Notes under the pieces: generated by a model
What the model saw: the letters and a program-made list of their open reading frames with translations, nothing else
What the model was told of the DNA's origin: nothing
The model's database searches: none
Shown: piece after piece, positions 12,259 to 59,003 of the stretch
Position numbering within the stretch: the first letter of the stretch is position 1
Layout: the number at the start of each line of letters is the position of its first letter
Position numbers and translations under genes: made by a program
Assembly (NCBI RefSeq): GCF_021646545.1
Contig: NZ_JAKIRP010000007.1
Span: 124,001 to 188,000, forward strand
From: Chitinophaga filiformis
GTDB taxonomy: Bacteria; Bacteroidota; Bacteroidia; Chitinophagales; Chitinophagaceae
Direction: 5' to 3'
DNA: 64,000 nt

Positions 12259-14070
12259 TCAATAATTTGGATTCTGATAATAGCTTCCTCCTGACTCCAG
12301 TGTATTCAGGAACTCCGTGGGAATAGGCCGCACTTCATGCTGATTATCGGTAAAGAACTGACCAACATCCGGATTGGTATTCATCAGGTAAGCCTTATTC
12401 AGTTTCTTAGTTCGTTTCAGATCATAGAACCTTACATATTCCCCGCATAACTCCCGCGCGCGTTCATCCAATACCGTCTGAACCGTTACAACCCCGGATA
12501 CCGGAATAGCGCCTGCCCTGGTCCTGATCTTATTGATATATTGCGCTGCATTTCCCCCTCCATTGGCGTATATATCAGCTTCTGCAGCGATCAGATAAAC
12601 TTCCGGCATCCGCATCATAAACGTCGCGTTTAAGTTACCATAGCGGTTATTTGATGCATTATTCGTATAGTAGTTACTGCTATTATGCTTGCTGAGGGAC
12701 GGGTAAAAGCTGAAGAAAGGATTTGTAGTTAATGTTCCTCCGCCATCCAATGGCCTGTTCACCCGGTTGTACTGCATTTTCACCGATTTCTTTGCGGCGT
12801 CATAAACATCTGCATAATCCACGATGAGGTATGGTTGAGAGAGTTTGTCTGCCACCCTGGTAGCATAATCCGGATCATTCGGATGAACGAAATCAATAGC
12901 CGGATCTCCCTGGGCAAGTGCAGTGCTGTTCGTTATTGCCGTGGAACGGTCAAAGATCTTCAATGCAGCATCTGTCCATGTATAAGAGGGCTTATTGACC
13001 GTCCATGAAGTCTGAAATGATTTATGATACCGGGGATCCAGCGTTCCATTTTCCTGTATATATAAGTTCAGCAAATGGGCGCTCGGCATGAACTGTCCGC
13101 CGGAACGACGGCCCCACGTCGTATAGTCTGCTCCCTGTTGCTGTATGGCGCCAAAATCCGTTACCACGCAATAAAACAACTCACTGTTCATATTCATATT
13201 CCAGGCACTATTGCTTACACCTCCCACCACATAACGATGTGACCATAAAGCTTCCCTGTTGCTGTAATTATTCGCTTCCAGGAACACCTCATCGAATGTA
13301 GGATAGAGGTAAGTATTATACTTGCTGCCGCCGCTTTCACAATCATCAATGAGCAGTTTCGCTGTCTCAAGTGCTTTCGCTGCCATCGACTTTGTTTCAT
13401 CGTATTCAACGGTCTGCAGATAAGCCCTGGCCAGGAAACCCAGTGCAGCCTTTTTGGAAGGCTTCGTGGTCCCATTGTTAAGCGGCAGCCACTCCACAGC
13501 AAATTGCAGATCAGGAATGATCAGGTTCTTATAGATATCCAGCGGGGCTGCTCTTTCGGGATGCAGATTGACAGTAGCAACGGGCGCAGTAGTGAGCGTT
13601 ACGCCACCGAACTGCTCCACCAGATTATAATAGTACATCGCACGCAGGAAATAGGCTTCTGCTACCATTTCATTCTTCTTTTCCGGCGTTGTGAACGGAG
13701 CAATATCAGCATATTTGATAGCAGTATTGCAGGAACCTATTCCGTCATAACAGGCATTCCATACCCCATTTCCCATGGTCAGGCTCATGGCAGCGCCAGC
13801 GCCGTATTTAAAGAACTGGGCGAATTGTACGTTGTTCTTCTGATACGTCCACAGATCAGTCCCTGCTTCACAGAGCATCATCCATTGGTTATACCCATAT
13901 AACTGGCGCTCCATACCGAAATAACAGTTGTTGACCAGATTCCTGTATCCATCAACGGAGGATGCAGCTACCGATTCTATCGTAAATCCGGATGGGTTCA
14001 CTTCTTCCAGCGAGCAGGAAGAAAGAACGGTGAGCATTGAGAACAGCAGTAGTAATATTTTATGTTTCAT
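12259..14070 (-). CDS. SusD/RagB family nutrient-binding outer-membrane lipoprotein
   Basis: This protein of about 603 aa has a lipoprotein signal (MKHKILLLLF ... LTVLSSC). It has typical SusD features: the N-terminal NCYFGMERQLYGYNQWM region, TPR-like helices with AEAYFLRAMYYYNLVEQFGG, and the C-terminal block RMPEVYLIAAEADIYANGGG with a late ERARELCGEYVRFYDLKR. It sits at the cell surface and caps the SusC channel encoded directly upstream. An alternative ATG at 14082 overlaps the SusC stop as TAATG and would allow translational coupling; I chose the downstream Met because it gives the more compact signal peptide. No glycosidase or regulator gene is adjacent, so the ligand cannot be assigned. 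Confidence 0.93.
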   Translation of the reverse strand: MKHKILLLLFSMLTVLSSCSLEEVNPSGFTIESVAASSVDGYRNLVNNCYFGMERQLYGYNQWMMLCEAGTDLWTYQKNNVQFAQFFKYGAGAAMSLTMGNGVWNACYDGIGSCNTAIKYADIAPFTTPEKKNEMVAEAYFLRAMYYYNLVEQFGGVTLTTAPVATVNLHPERAAPLDIYKNLIIPDLQFAVEWLPLNNGTTKPSKKAALGFLARAYLQTVEYDETKSMAAKALETAKLLIDDCESGGSKYNTYLYPTFDEVFLEANNYSNREALWSHRYVVGGVSNSAWNMNMNSELFYCVVTDFGAIQQQGADYTTWGRRSGGQFMPSAHLLNLYIQENGTLDPRYHKSFQTSWTVNKPSYTWTDAALKIFDRSTAITNSTALAQGDPAIDFVHPNDPDYATRVADKLSQPYLIVDYADVYDAAKKSVKMQYNRVNRPLDGGGTLTTNPFFSFYPSLSKHNSSNYYTNNASNNRYGNLNATFMMRMPEVYLIAAEADIYANGGGNAAQYINKIRTRAGAIPVSGVVTVQTVLDERARELCGEYVRFYDLKRTKKLNKAYLMNTNPDVGQFFTDNQHEVRPIPTEFLNTLESGGSYYQNPNY

Positions 14071-19226: not shown

Positions 19227-19311
19227 TCATCTGAAATAATCACCTGTGCTGACGAAATAAGCAGGAATGCCTCCTGCTATTGAAAACTAAGTTAGTAGTG
19301 ATATCAAAAAT

Positions 19312-19345
19312 AAATAGCCATCTGAAAAATATCAGATGGCTATTT
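19312..19345. terminator. Bidirectional terminator between convergent genes
   Basis: A 14-bp perfect stem (AAATAGCCATCTGA with TCAGATGGCTATTT) has a 6-nt loop and is followed by a T-rich run on the plus strand. It separates the T9SS protein from the convergent 244-aa gene. Confidence 0.85.
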
Positions 19346-19391
19346 ATTTTTTGCAATAAAATGTCTGTTATTATTGGGTAATAAGTAAATA

Positions 19392-20126
19392 TTAAACCCT
19401 TTCCTTGTCCAGGAACCATTGTATAAATTCCCCCTCCTCGCCTCCTACTTCTATAGCATACTCAGTATATCTGTCACTATCTTCGGCTCCAACGGGATAG
19501 ATAGTCAATGACTCATTGATAGGTTTATAATCTGTATAATCATATGCGTACCAGATCGTCTTGATCTCACTGAAATATCTGCTGATCAACTCATCTGCGG
19601 TCATTGTCTCTTTAAACCAGTTAGACCCCAGTTTAATGAGATAAGCCGTCCAGTCATATACCAAAGCTTTATCCCGTAGTTTATGTGCTTCCCGTATCAG
19701 GTGCAAGCCAAGATCATACTCGCTCATTAATTCCAGCGCTCCCTCATCTTTCCTTAACGGAGAACCATAGTCAATATAGATCTTGCGGGTTTCATTTTCC
19801 AGGTAAGCCACTACATCGTTCTTCTCACTCCATCTTTTCTTTATATCGCGGTTAATGAATACAATGTCATCTTTCTTCTTGAGCTGCTTTTCGAACCAGG
19901 CTTCATTTCCTTCATAATCCGGATGTTCCGTATAGTCAATTGCTCTTGTATACCCGGTTTTCAACAAGATGGGCATCACCCTGAAATTTGTAAACTTACA
20001 ATCATATTGGTTCTGTATAGCATACAGGTTACCGATCAGTTGTACTTTATGTTCGTTTGTCCCTTCTGTCTTGTCCACAAAATTTATGCTTTCTTCTACC
20101 AGGGCTTCTATTTCCCACATTGACAT
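19392..20126 (-). CDS. Cytoplasmic protein of unknown function
   Basis: A 244-aa acidic protein with no signal peptide or membrane segment. It is rich in aromatic residues and Asp/Glu (for example IWYAYDYTDYKP near residue 190 and GGEEGEFIQWFLDKERV at the C-terminus). I do not recognise the family. It resembles the many soluble hypothetical proteins of Bacteroidota linked to polymorphic-toxin immunity, but nothing here proves that. Its 5' end faces the intergenic region with the two long palindromes. A second Met two codons in (20120) is also possible. Confidence 0.7.
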   Translation of the reverse strand: MSMWEIEALVEESINFVDKTEGTNEHKVQLIGNLYAIQNQYDCKFTNFRVMPILLKTGYTRAIDYTEHPDYEGNEAWFEKQLKKKDDIVFINRDIKKRWSEKNDVVAYLENETRKIYIDYGSPLRKDEGALELMSEYDLGLHLIREAHKLRDKALVYDWTAYLIKLGSNWFKETMTADELISRYFSEIKTIWYAYDYTDYKPINESLTIYPVGAEDSDRYTEYAIEVGGEEGEFIQWFLDKERV

Positions 20127-20376
20127 GGCTGTATGCTTGCTGATTTAAACTTTAATAACGAAATATATTTATTTAGACGCGCTGCCGGCGCGGATTTTTC
20201 TAAGGATACCAGGTAAACACAAACGACAAACATGCTTGCTTATTCAATTCGTACCTTCTGATCACTTCACAAAAGTAAGCAGAAAAGTAATGCGGGTTAT
20301 ACGCATTTTACTACATCACAAAAGGAACTAATCAACTGATTTACAAATAATTAAAGGCCACACAATCTTAAAAGCT

Positions 20377-20406
20377 CCCAACAGCGACAATCCGGTTTCT
20401 GTTGGG
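20377..20406 (-). terminator. Hairpin, possible leftward terminator or attenuator
   Basis: CCCAACAG (20377-20384) pairs with CTGTTGGG (20399-20406) around a 14-nt loop. On the minus strand it is followed by AGCTTTTAAG. No annotated gene ends here, so it would act on a leftward transcript starting within the palindrome region, or in the leader of the 244-aa gene. Confidence 0.4.
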
Positions 20407-20458
20407 TAAATATTCGAAAGCGGGGTTTGTCTTAGTCAGAAACCACGGGCGAGATTCG

Positions 20459-20554
20459 GTTGACCTTCGGTCGAGGTAGCCTCATCCTCCCTTCATCTTC
20501 CGTTCCGGAACGGAAGATGAAGGGAGGATGAGGCTACCTCGACCGAAGGTCAAC
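20459..20554. repeat. Perfect 96-bp palindrome
   Basis: Two 48-base arms are perfectly complementary without any spacer; the centre is TTCCGGAA at 20503-20510. The arms contain smaller inverted parts (GACCTTCGGTC at 20462-20472). The element lies between two divergent genes, so it is not a normal terminator. See the second palindrome at 20586-20705, which shares its base skeleton. Confidence 0.95.
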
Positions 20555-20585
20555 TATATCTCAAATACATAAAAACAATCGGACT

Positions 20586-20705
20586 CACTTCGGTACCAAT
20601 CCGGTACCAACGGTGTACCAATAGTCTCATCTTATGTTAAACTTACGTTCAAGACGTAAGATGAACATAAGATGAGACTATTGGTACACCGTTGGTACCG
20701 AAGTG
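20586..20705. repeat. Second long palindrome (37-bp perfect arms plus extensions)
   Basis: Bases 20602-20638 are perfectly complementary to 20664-20700. Inside, CTTACGT (20642-20648) pairs with ACGTAAG (20654-20660), leaving a 5-nt loop. Outside, CACTT (20586-20590) pairs with AAGTG (20701-20705) if an 11-nt left-arm insertion (20591-20601), which repeats CGGTACCAA, is bulged out. Arms aligned with the first palindrome agree at about 20 of 29 positions in the core. Confidence 0.93.
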
Positions 20706-20796
20706 GTACTCTAGAGATAACAAAAAACACCTCCATCAGCCATTGCGTAAAAATGACGAAATAAGTTTGCCAGGTTCAATATGTTTACGTATTTTC

Positions 20797-20817
20797 ATTA
20801 CGTCAAAAAAACGTAAT
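20797..20817. promoter_or_regulatory. Inverted repeat upstream of the 130-aa gene
   Basis: ATTACGT (20797-20803) and ACGTAAT (20811-20817) flank seven bases, ending 42 bp before the ATG at 20860. A third TTACGT copy lies at 20785-20790. It is a possible operator, judged from symmetry and position only. Confidence 0.4.
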
Positions 20818-20859
20818 AGTTTTTCAAACCCATTCCCCCACGTTTAAAAAATTCCATTT

Positions 20860-21252
20860 ATGAAAAAATTAACTGCAATTCTTACCGTAGCTTTTTTTAT
20901 GCTGTTTTCATTTAACGGTTATGCTCAAGCTGGCAACAAACCCGATTATTTCGTTGGCAAATGGGATGTAACCGTAATAGGTACGCCACAGGGCGATGCT
21001 GTCATGAAAGTAGATTTAAAACGAAACGAGGGGAAATTAACGGGAAACATCCTCACCCAATCTGGTACTGAGCCTGCTGCTATCAGCAAGATAGAAGAAG
21101 CAGATGGATCGGTTAAGCTCTATTTTACTGCCAGCGGGTATGATGTATTCCTCCTATTGCAGAAGAAGGACGATGATCATGTTACCGGTAATCTGCTGGA
21201 AATGTTTGAAGCAAAAGGCGTCCGGGTAAAAGCAGAAGAGACAAAATCCTAG
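20860..21252 (+). CDS. Small secreted protein, lipocalin-like in outline
   Basis: A 130-aa protein with a clear signal peptide (MKKLTAILTVAFFMLFSFNGYAQ). The mature part starts DYFVGKWDVTVIGTPQGDA, the GxW-type opening seen in small lipocalin-like or META-like beta-barrels, and continues as alternating beta strands (GKLTGNILTQSG, VTGNLLEMFEAKG). This suggests a small periplasmic barrel, but no specific family can be named. It is monocistronic and followed by a terminator. Its promoter region holds the inverted repeat at 20797-20817 and, further up, the two long palindromes. Confidence 0.75.
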   Translation: MKKLTAILTVAFFMLFSFNGYAQAGNKPDYFVGKWDVTVIGTPQGDAVMKVDLKRNEGKLTGNILTQSGTEPAAISKIEEADGSVKLYFTASGYDVFLLLQKKDDDHVTGNLLEMFEAKGVRVKAEETKS

Positions 21253-21358
21253 CGTGTCATACACACGTTAACTAAACCCAATACCCATTTCAACGGTGGA
21301 CACAAAGGCGAAAGGCGCCACAACCTGCCCAGCATTCACAAGACTTTCTTTACAATTG

Positions 21359-21379
21359 AAGCTACCTTACCGGTAGCTT
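21359..21379 (+). terminator. Terminator of the 130-aa secreted-protein gene
   Basis: AAGCTACC (21359-21366) pairs with GGTAGCTT (21372-21379) around a 5-nt loop, followed by a T run, about 107 bp after the stop codon. Confidence 0.8.
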
Positions 21380-21735
21380 TTTTCATTTTCGACTATAAAA
21401 AAAATCGATACGGCTACAGCTGCTTTTCGCCCGTTTCAGAGCTGTCTGTCATGGTGCACTTTGCTTGCCGATTGGCAAAAGTGTTAAGATATAGCTGTTA
21501 AGCGTTAAAATAATGGTTGATAGGTATATCCCTATTTTCTTAATTTCACACTAATCAAGTGTTGATCTGACATTTAATAATACTGACTTGTAGCTGCCTA
21601 CGCTGGATATGTAACGAACAATAGAATCTTCATCACTGCCCTCAAGCTACTGGCCTGTTCCGACAAAACCCGGAACACCCGGCTGTGTTATTTAATATTC
21701 GGCCCAAATATATAACCCTTATCAATTTAATCTTT
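21380..21735. other. Intergenic region without a gene
   Basis: This is the upstream region of the DUF6055/DUF4859 lipoprotein. The only structure seen is a 7-bp hairpin, TGTTCCG (21656-21662) with CGGAACA (21671-21677), in the probable leader. The frame of the following gene extends back to 21685 but without signal-peptide sense. Confidence 0.35.
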
Positions 21736-58259: not shown

Positions 58260-59003
58260 TCAGGTTCCCTGCCCGTTCAGCAATTGCTTCACCACATGTT
58301 TGTAGTTCTTTCCCAGTGGCAGCTGTTTGCCATTCTTCAGGCTAATGATATTTCCCTCAATATAGCGCACAAATTTCTTATTGAGGATATAAGATTTATG
58401 AATGCGTATGAAAGTATCTGCAGGCAGCTGACTTTCAAAGCTGCTCAATGTTCTCGGGGTCAGCAGGAAACGCTGTTCGTCCCATATCTTAACATAGTTA
58501 CCCAGGCTTTCCAGATAGTATATATCTTCCAGGTTCAGTAGTATCTGTTTCTTATCCGACCTAACATAGATCCGTTCAGGGGCGGCCGTTGTAACTGGTG
58601 ATGGTGGTGCCGCTGCCGGCGTCGTTGCCGTAGCCTGTTGCCTTAACGTATAATCTGACAAGGCCCGGTTGGCAGCTTTCAGGAAGCGATCGAAGCGGAA
58701 AGGCTTCAGAAGATAATCGCATACATCCAGGTCAAAGCTCTCCAGCGCATGTTCTTCAAAGGCAGACGTGATGATAACAAGTGGACGTTGCTGCAATGTT
58801 CTCAGGAAGTCCAGTCCGTTCAGTTTAGGCATGCGCACATCCAGGAAGATCAGATCTATCGCCTGCCTGTTCAGGAAATCAGGTACTTCCGTAGCTCTGT
58901 AGCACTGGCCGCAGTTCTCCAGGAAGGGAACATCCTCCATATATCGCAGAATGATATCGTGCGCCAGTGGCTCGTCATCCACTATTAAACATCGCAAACT
59001 CAT
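58260..59003 (-). CDS. LytTR-type response regulator
   Basis: This 247-aa protein has an N-terminal receiver domain with DDEP at 9-12 and the phospho-acceptor Asp55 in LIFLDVRMPKLNGLDFL, followed by IITSAFEEHALESFDLDVCD and YLLKPF (Lys near 98). A Pro/Thr/Ala linker comes next (about 115-135). The LytTR DNA-binding domain (about 142-245) has YLESLGNYVKIW, LSSFESQLPADTFIRIHKSY and NKKFVRYIEGNII. LytTR proteins bind direct repeats about two helical turns apart. Its start overlaps the kinase stop by 4 bp. The nearest candidate target is the divergent ABC operon. Confidence 0.95.
   Translation of the reverse strand: MSLRCLIVDDEPLAHDIILRYMEDVPFLENCGQCYRATEVPDFLNRQAIDLIFLDVRMPKLNGLDFLRTLQQRPLVIITSAFEEHALESFDLDVCDYLLKPFRFDRFLKAANRALSDYTLRQQATATTPAAAPPSPVTTAAPERIYVRSDKKQILLNLEDIYYLESLGNYVKIWDEQRFLLTPRTLSSFESQLPADTFIRIHKSYILNKKFVRYIEGNIISLKNGKQLPLGKNYKHVVKQLLNGQGT

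Follow-up and report, generated by a model that had tools for sequence, protein, structure and literature searches.

Long palindromes built from 11-bp words in Chitinophaga as candidate site arrays of a multi-copy S, LytTR and L gene locus

The window, a 64-kb stretch of Chitinophaga filiformis DNA, carries two long palindromes between divergent genes (19392-20126 on the minus strand, 20860-21252 on the plus strand), as the original prediction had it. Palindrome A contains a spacer-free core of 96 bp at 20459-20554, in which 48 of 48 pairs are complementary, and beyond three mismatches it runs on to 20451-20562. Palindrome B (20593-20709) has 52 of 58 complementary pairs, among them an uninterrupted 37-bp stretch per arm, the mismatches falling both inward and outward of that stretch; both structures, the second with its inner and outer extensions, had been read correctly. 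Each arm carries a pair of core boxes. In the left arm of A (20484-20504, plus strand) these are ATCCTCCCTT at 20484-20493 and ATCTTCCGTT at 20495-20504, spaced 11 bp, and the right arm (20509-20529, minus strand) mirrors them at 20509-20518 and 20520-20529. In B, the left arm (20629-20649, plus strand) holds ATCTTATGTT at 20629-20638 and the variant AACTTACGTT at 20640-20649, and the right arm (20653-20673, minus strand) holds ATCTTATGTT at 20664-20673 with the inner variant ATCTTACGTC at 20653-20662. No other inverted repeat with arms >28 nt and a spacer up to 200 bp was found in the whole window. Away from the palindromes, a LytTR-like domain is encoded at 58296-58556 on the minus strand (tblastn, E 1e-13 to 1e-12).

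Both palindromes have dispersed relatives. In the C. filiformis genome (9.07 Mb, 29 contigs), a similarity search matched A 51 times and B 68 times, counted at E up to 10 with both strands and weak matches included. In the fetched loci we distinguish 48 arrays, each with one to three palindromes, neighbours within an array often lying ~40-55 bp and up to ~130 bp apart. Copies also occur in other Chitinophaga genomes. The palindromes of this genome, whose families span lengths of about 50-125 bp, fall, apart from a few unclassified ones, into five or more word families (A to E); family A includes the words GATTCGGTTGA, CCTTCGGTCGA, GGTAGCCTCAT, CCTCCCTTCAT and CTTCCGTTC, and family B includes AATCCGGTACC, AACGGTGTACC, AATAGTCTCAT, CTTATGTTAAA and CTTACGTTC. 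A and B had been proposed to be a local pair of diverged copies, and this was not supported, as they belong to separate word families that are each dispersed through the genome; they do resemble each other, chiefly in the inner words, and a common 11-bp word grammar accounts for the likeness. A longer B-type pattern had no match in the named genomes, a set to which the C. filiformis genome possibly does not belong. An assembly artefact is unlikely, since such palindromes occur in many assemblies, including the one-contig genomes G016 and G034.

The arms are rows of 11-bp words. Across 135 arms with a core pair, self-identity is 0.65 at a lag of 11 and 0.40 at a lag of 22, compared with 0.17-0.31 at other lags up to 30, and in the outer arms (n = 80, inner 24 nt removed) it is 0.73 and 0.62 at lags of 11 and 22. 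Aligned in phase with the core ATCYTACGTTN, the outer words (127 distinct ones) obey a common grammar, with T at position 9 in 92% and G at position 7 in 65%, whilst A at position 6 and T at position 2 round to 0%. The core pair is present in 162 of 192 non-redundant palindromes, a share biased upward because word or similarity searches supplied the greater part of them, the set being drawn from fetched loci and 400-kb samples. Outside the central five pairs, 6144 of 6296 pairs in these 162 are complementary, and 89 of the 162 palindromes are perfect there. Tandem arrays of period 11 were counted in 400-kb samples, 13 in the C. filiformis genome, seven in the carrier G016 and 13 in the word-negative G033; as the arrays of G033 are as frequent as those of C. 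filiformis, the 11-bp period extends wider than the core word family. The G033 arrays have other words, with periods 11 and 22 (L279 1446-1601, L289 15170-15289, L292 3670-3703). A further inverted array of period 11, in which ATATAACCCAT words face ATGGGTTATAT words, occurs in C. filiformis and G016 (L263 1519-1606, L264 17385-17498, L306 13759-13848), and L266 holds a 90-bp palindrome of TATAGC words at 13632-13721 with 44 of 45 pairs complementary.

A degenerate core pair occurs in 14 of 79 Chitinophaga genomes, with 18-107 matches each, and in none of the remaining 65; the reversed pattern, used as a control, scored zero in all 79. In an order-wide set of 396 genomes it was present in eight, namely five of 15 Chitinophaga and three of 381 others, the latter with one match each. 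Among the matches listed, the pair lies inside palindromes in C. ginsengisoli, C. filiformis, C. oryziterrae, C. rhizophila, C. pinensis YS-16, Chitinophaga sp. S165, YR627, YR573, CF118 and CF418, and in a metagenome-assembled genome labelled Flavihumibacter. Outside Chitinophaga, 18 loci carry two to five copies of the core word in a direct row; they belong to Daejeonella, Pedobacter, Pseudopedobacter, Flavihumibacter ZG627, Paludibacteraceae and other Bacteroidota. A single viral contig in IMG/VR (L319) carries the core word pair.

The gene context of 76 palindromes from 80 named loci is mixed: 28 lie in co-directional, 21 in convergent and 12 in divergent gaps, one lies within an open-reading frame and 14 lie at an edge. 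Convergent gaps are enriched, 20 of 80 holding palindromes vs. 38 of 392 other gaps (p = 5e-4). These figures bear on the reading that selection maintains long double-stranded RNA transcribed from the palindromes, for which the perfect pairing of the arms speaks, as does the excess of U.G over C.A among inner-box mispairs on the strand with the A-rich loop (19 vs. 5, p = 0.007, a count that spans several genomes and includes related copies). That excess is itself a hint of strandedness. An RNA hairpin is nevertheless very unlikely to be the explanation, as gaps of all kinds are used, the outer arms contain few mismatches, perfect complementarity persists at free positions, and an Rfam search of 19300-21400 returned 33 matches at E up to 1 and none at its gathering score.

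A block TGTAAAGTCAATCCTG ... AAACTGTAAAGTTTTTCTGTA that resembles the end of a multi-copy insertion sequence, and at which several contigs break, flanks a part of the arrays. Copies lie in genome G000 at loci L390-L405 (contigs C1, C4, C5, C7, C11, C13, C15, C17, C19 and C22-C24), with further copies at the ends of C20, C26 and C29; a short open-reading frame start suggests that the block is IS3-like, and a family search gave no match. It raises the possibility that the palindromes are miniature mobile elements, passengers of an insertion sequence whose ends flank them. In this sense, the block stands on at least one side of 16 of the 48 C. filiformis arrays (on both sides of three), always in the same orientation, it accompanies 13 of 22 arrays with a C or D palindrome vs. 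three of 26 without one, no copy occurs in 400 kb of control sequence, and for 16 of its 17 copies the nearest palindrome is no more than 400 bp away. On the other hand, it is missing at 32 of the 48 arrays, and palindromes are retained at orthologous sites with changed words. Four pairs of occupied and empty sites were compared, the fourth of which aligned through free of gaps, whilst none of the three with gaps was clean: the flanks left gaps of 5 and ~60 bp at the unoccupied site vs. ~560-590 bp, and one unoccupied site was filled by unrelated sequence. Passenger status is distinctly unlikely.

Both arms of a palindrome change together. In 27 cross-species comparisons of orthologous or same-locus palindromes, obtained from 28 hand-picked pairs (L369/L366 yielded none, one member having no palindrome that passed the finder's limit), 863 of 1005 pairs were unchanged, 113 differences were mirrored in the opposite arm, 26 were one-sided and three were two-sided without complementarity. 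Independently changing arms would give ~17 two-sided and ~225 one-sided differences; several of the compared pairs have a locus in common, so the 113 and 26 cannot be treated as separate events. Mirrored differences are confirmed beyond the pair A and B, and the arm covariation bears out the original prediction that selection, or a copying mechanism that rebuilds one arm from the other, is needed. At the window's own site, compared in five other species, G020 has palindromes A and C, G069 has one palindrome with other words and G068 has another placed upstream of the same gene (homology in G069 and G068 is judged by position), and no palindrome was seen at the site in G054 and G034. Other orthologous loci display a similar mix of retention and change, with some partners lacking a palindrome, although one set of orthologous pairs is biased towards presence, its palindromes having been fetched by word or similarity.

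Agreement between arms reaches positions that the words leave free. Of 111 palindromes, 106 have the same free base between the two core boxes in both arms (46 expected) and all 111 agree at the Y of the outer core box (72 expected), whilst only 69 agree at the Y of the innermost box (56 expected). Counted outward from the centre, mismatches amount to 38% at 1-2 bp, 10% at 3-4 bp, 2.5% at 5-6 bp, 7% at 7-8 bp and 12% at 9-10 bp, then to about 1% at 11-35 and about 3% at 36-52 bp, and rise to 67% immediately beyond the palindrome ends, where 75% would mean that symmetry is absent. Binding alone does not demand cross-arm agreement at a free base, and a protein that tolerates C or T at both boxes leaves the mismatch gradient unexplained. 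We infer that the gradient fits copying from an annealed hairpin tip, to which selection on a paired stem could contribute. The gradient and the mirrored free positions would also suit a purely mutational process, in which quasipalindrome correction perfects any early palindrome and a protein partner is irrelevant; such neutral upkeep is highly improbable as the whole account, however, as it leaves the 11-bp words, their grammar and their gene linkage unexplained.

Clustering of the open-reading frames at word-containing loci exposed one small family near the words, which we call S/L. The commonest neighbour cluster (17 of 80 named loci) looked TonB-linked and outer-membrane, and clusters other than S/L were generic; these were set aside. 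S is a small basic protein of ~96 aa with a median net charge of +11 (43 sequences), and is present in 13 of 14 word-positive Chitinophaga genomes (absent from G067) and in one of 65 word-negative ones (Fisher p = 7e-13, the kinship of genomes being ignored). In the exception, G001, a palindrome with other words adjoins S. The S/L family as a whole reaches 32 of 79 genomes at E 1e-6, L on its own being widespread. A palindrome lies within 1 kb of 23 of the family's 37 short open-reading frames, which include one truncated L, and a palindrome or word lies within 1 kb of 27; the ten with neither count against our best model. Genomes with L only often have period-11 arrays of other words near L, such as ACTGAAGGTTC in G035 and GCTTGTTCGTC in G001, but others had no such array nearby, among them the fetched copies of G044 and G045.

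At several Chitinophaga loci S is followed by a palindrome and then by a stand-alone LytTR gene and L, the third gene being a LytTR protein (PF04397, E 8e-12 to 2e-19) in 10 of 10 open-reading frames chosen by eye. At D-type loci, S and L diverge from an intervening palindrome and no LytTR gene was seen; elsewhere the palindrome can lie downstream of S. A close stand-alone LytTR (E 1e-16) occurs in 10 of the 14 carriers and, among the 65 other genomes, in G001 only, whilst weaker stand-alone LytTR frames beside L in the word-negative G002 and G037 count against the association. The C. filiformis genome has loci of A, C and D type, and no B-type S or LytTR locus was found in it despite its B palindromes. 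Neither S nor L reached a curated cut-off in Pfam or NCBIfam or matched a PHROG. S is predicted to fold into a beta hairpin and three longer helices (pLDDT 77, poor at the N-terminus), and the S model had no fold match in a PDB library at E 0.001 or better, which leaves the modelled S with no recognisable DNA-binding fold; L is predicted to combine an S-like part with a seven-strand C-terminal domain (pLDDT 84). A phage or plasmid origin was rejected, S having no match in phage and plasmid collections. At L365 1032-2824 (G000 contig C22), beside a D-type locus, an AAA ATPase gene with weak PtuA and retron-effector scores below cut-off adjoins a 175-aa gene with no Pfam family, possibly a defence pair.

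Words and loci go together, distinct S clades adjoining distinct words (GATACCGCTT, CCTCCCTT, AACAATG, ATACAAGG, GTACCAATGG). Protein similarity correlates with word similarity for S (Mantel r = 0.63, n = 23), for LytTR (0.56, n = 14, including one probably misread frame, L211) and for L (0.58, n = 21, with one locus present twice, as L341 and L388), and none of 5000 permutations reached any of these values. With the core removed the values are 0.65 for S, 0.59 for L and 0.40 for LytTR, the last equalled or exceeded in 31 of 5000 permutations, which counts against our best model. Orthologues add to the signal, so it demonstrates no less than joint inheritance and no more than specificity. The LytTR consensus of older work is 30 times denser in the palindromes than in a 400-kb sample; against this, only 49 of 162 palindromes contain four or more matches, and the outer words contain 11 in 2299 bp. 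The core ACGTTCATC is one base off CCGTTCATC, which is among the AlgR sites reported in PMC4064291, and the LytTR sites described in PMC11347149 are 9-bp direct repeats spaced 10-13 bp apart.

The words could also be read by S itself, with LytTR merely regulating the locus, the palindromes then being arrays of S protein. S is the constant neighbour, lying 22-64 bp from the row at five of the 18 direct-row loci (Daejeonella, Pedobacter, Flavihumibacter), and no LytTR was detected in the 8-kb pieces around those 18 non-Chitinophaga loci, so S stays a serious candidate reader; its basic charge and its Mantel value, the highest of the three, point the same way. The likeness of the core word to a LytTR site and the missing DNA-binding fold in the S model argue against it, and we regard reading by S as unlikely.

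The best explanation, which we give roughly an even chance of being right, is that the palindromes are head-to-head arrays of cognate sites for S-LytTR-L loci whose arm identity is restored by fold-back copying. In its favour stand, at the level of sequence, the word families with their 11-bp period and grammar, the arms that change in mirror image, the linkage to the partner genes, the concordance of word and locus and the co-occurrence across genomes. Further points weigh against it: no LytTR was detected at the 18 direct-row loci, a close LytTR was found in only 10 of 14 carriers, C. filiformis has B palindromes but no B-type locus, and period-11 arrays are just as frequent in the G033 sample, which lacks the core word. 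Each palindrome would be two facing rows of DNA boxes that recur once per helical turn (11 bp). The common core word ATCYTACGTTN, the commonness of which is partly a matter of ascertainment, the palindromes being mostly fetched by it, would sit among outer words that differ between species and loci. The partner would be a multi-copy locus of an undescribed chromosomal system, comprising the basic S of ~96 aa, a stand-alone LytTR DNA-binding domain that is missing at some loci, and L, a longer S relative with an additional strand-rich C-terminal domain. The LytTR protein, possibly with S, would most likely bind the rows cooperatively, and each paralogous locus would own one word family. Fold-back (quasipalindrome) template switching at replication would reset arm identity, perhaps assisted by SbcCD cutting and recombinational repair, so that the words would drift, yet jointly in both arms. 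Protein binding, the copying mechanism, the part of SbcCD and the job of the system are inferred from these patterns and are proposed on that footing. In Escherichia coli, according to PMC7202029, template switching turns imperfect inverted repeats into more perfect ones.

The distribution of SbcD bears on the last step of this fold-back model. It scores above cut-off in 24 of 79 genomes, namely in every one of the 14 carriers and in 10 of the other 65 genomes (Fisher p = 1.6e-9, kinship ignored). SbcD is part of the hairpin nuclease SbcCD, and long palindromes would be expected to survive without that nuclease; the carriers are instead nested among SbcD-positive genomes. Loss of SbcCD as the cause of the long palindromes was not supported, the pattern being the opposite. 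It may reflect clade history, the main alternative, or a part of SbcCD in upkeep. A bolder form of the fold-back model, which we consider possible and hold tentatively, is that the palindromes represent a new class of dispersed element, rows of boxes owned by a locus in which fold-back copying and SbcCD-dependent break repair keep, and perhaps spread, the symmetry. If so, a hairpin-cutting enzyme would maintain rather than purge long palindromes, in a partnership of protein and palindrome that has no transposase or known nucleoid protein.

The 11-bp words, their grammar and the partner genes go beyond the original prediction. They present many natural near-perfect palindromes of about 50-125 bp, kept across species with both arms changing together, by which the persistence and rebuilding of long palindromes become directly testable. 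They also tie these palindromes to two protein families with no significant Pfam, NCBIfam or PHROGs match and to a stand-alone LytTR, and the pairs of word and locus are ready material for decoding DNA recognition. In searches of the open-access PMC literature we recognised no description of the palindromes or of S and L, and the main text of PMC10434271 does not mention Chitinophaga.

The palindromes fall under no known family. Miniature inverted-repeat elements and repeats such as ERIC are likewise multi-copy, intergenic and palindromic, but the Chitinophaga palindromes are retained at orthologous sites with both arms rewritten and have locus-specific words. The comparison with REP/RAYT systems is closer in pattern, as these too consist, according to PMC8266576, of palindromes scattered between genes, specific in sequence to each genome and accompanied there by cognate genes. 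Such a system would need a Y1 tyrosine transposase, which the original prediction had suggested searching for; PF01797 had no match in the C. filiformis genome, in a search whose control was positive in five of 14 genomes, and the suggestion was not borne out. REPs measure 20-40 bp in the account of PMC3733652, whereas the Chitinophaga palindromes are several times longer (too long, at about 50-125 bp, for REPs) and consist of 11-bp words, and their partners S and L belong to no family in the libraries searched. A REP/RAYT-type origin is extremely improbable. BldC, as described in PMC5859096, is similarly a small protein that multimerises on direct repeats, yet it is unrelated, and its sites in that account are neither palindromic nor dispersed families. 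LytTR regulatory systems (LRS) and stand-alone LytTR proteins such as BlpS (PMC6193735, PMC8545106) share with the Chitinophaga loci a small LytTR-only protein and direct-repeat sites. The known LRS partner is a membrane inhibitor, whereas the candidate partners here are S and L; and the LRS repeats are pairs 11-13 bp apart ahead of promoters, whereas the Chitinophaga boxes recur every 11 bp, stand in two facing rows and are spread genome-wide.
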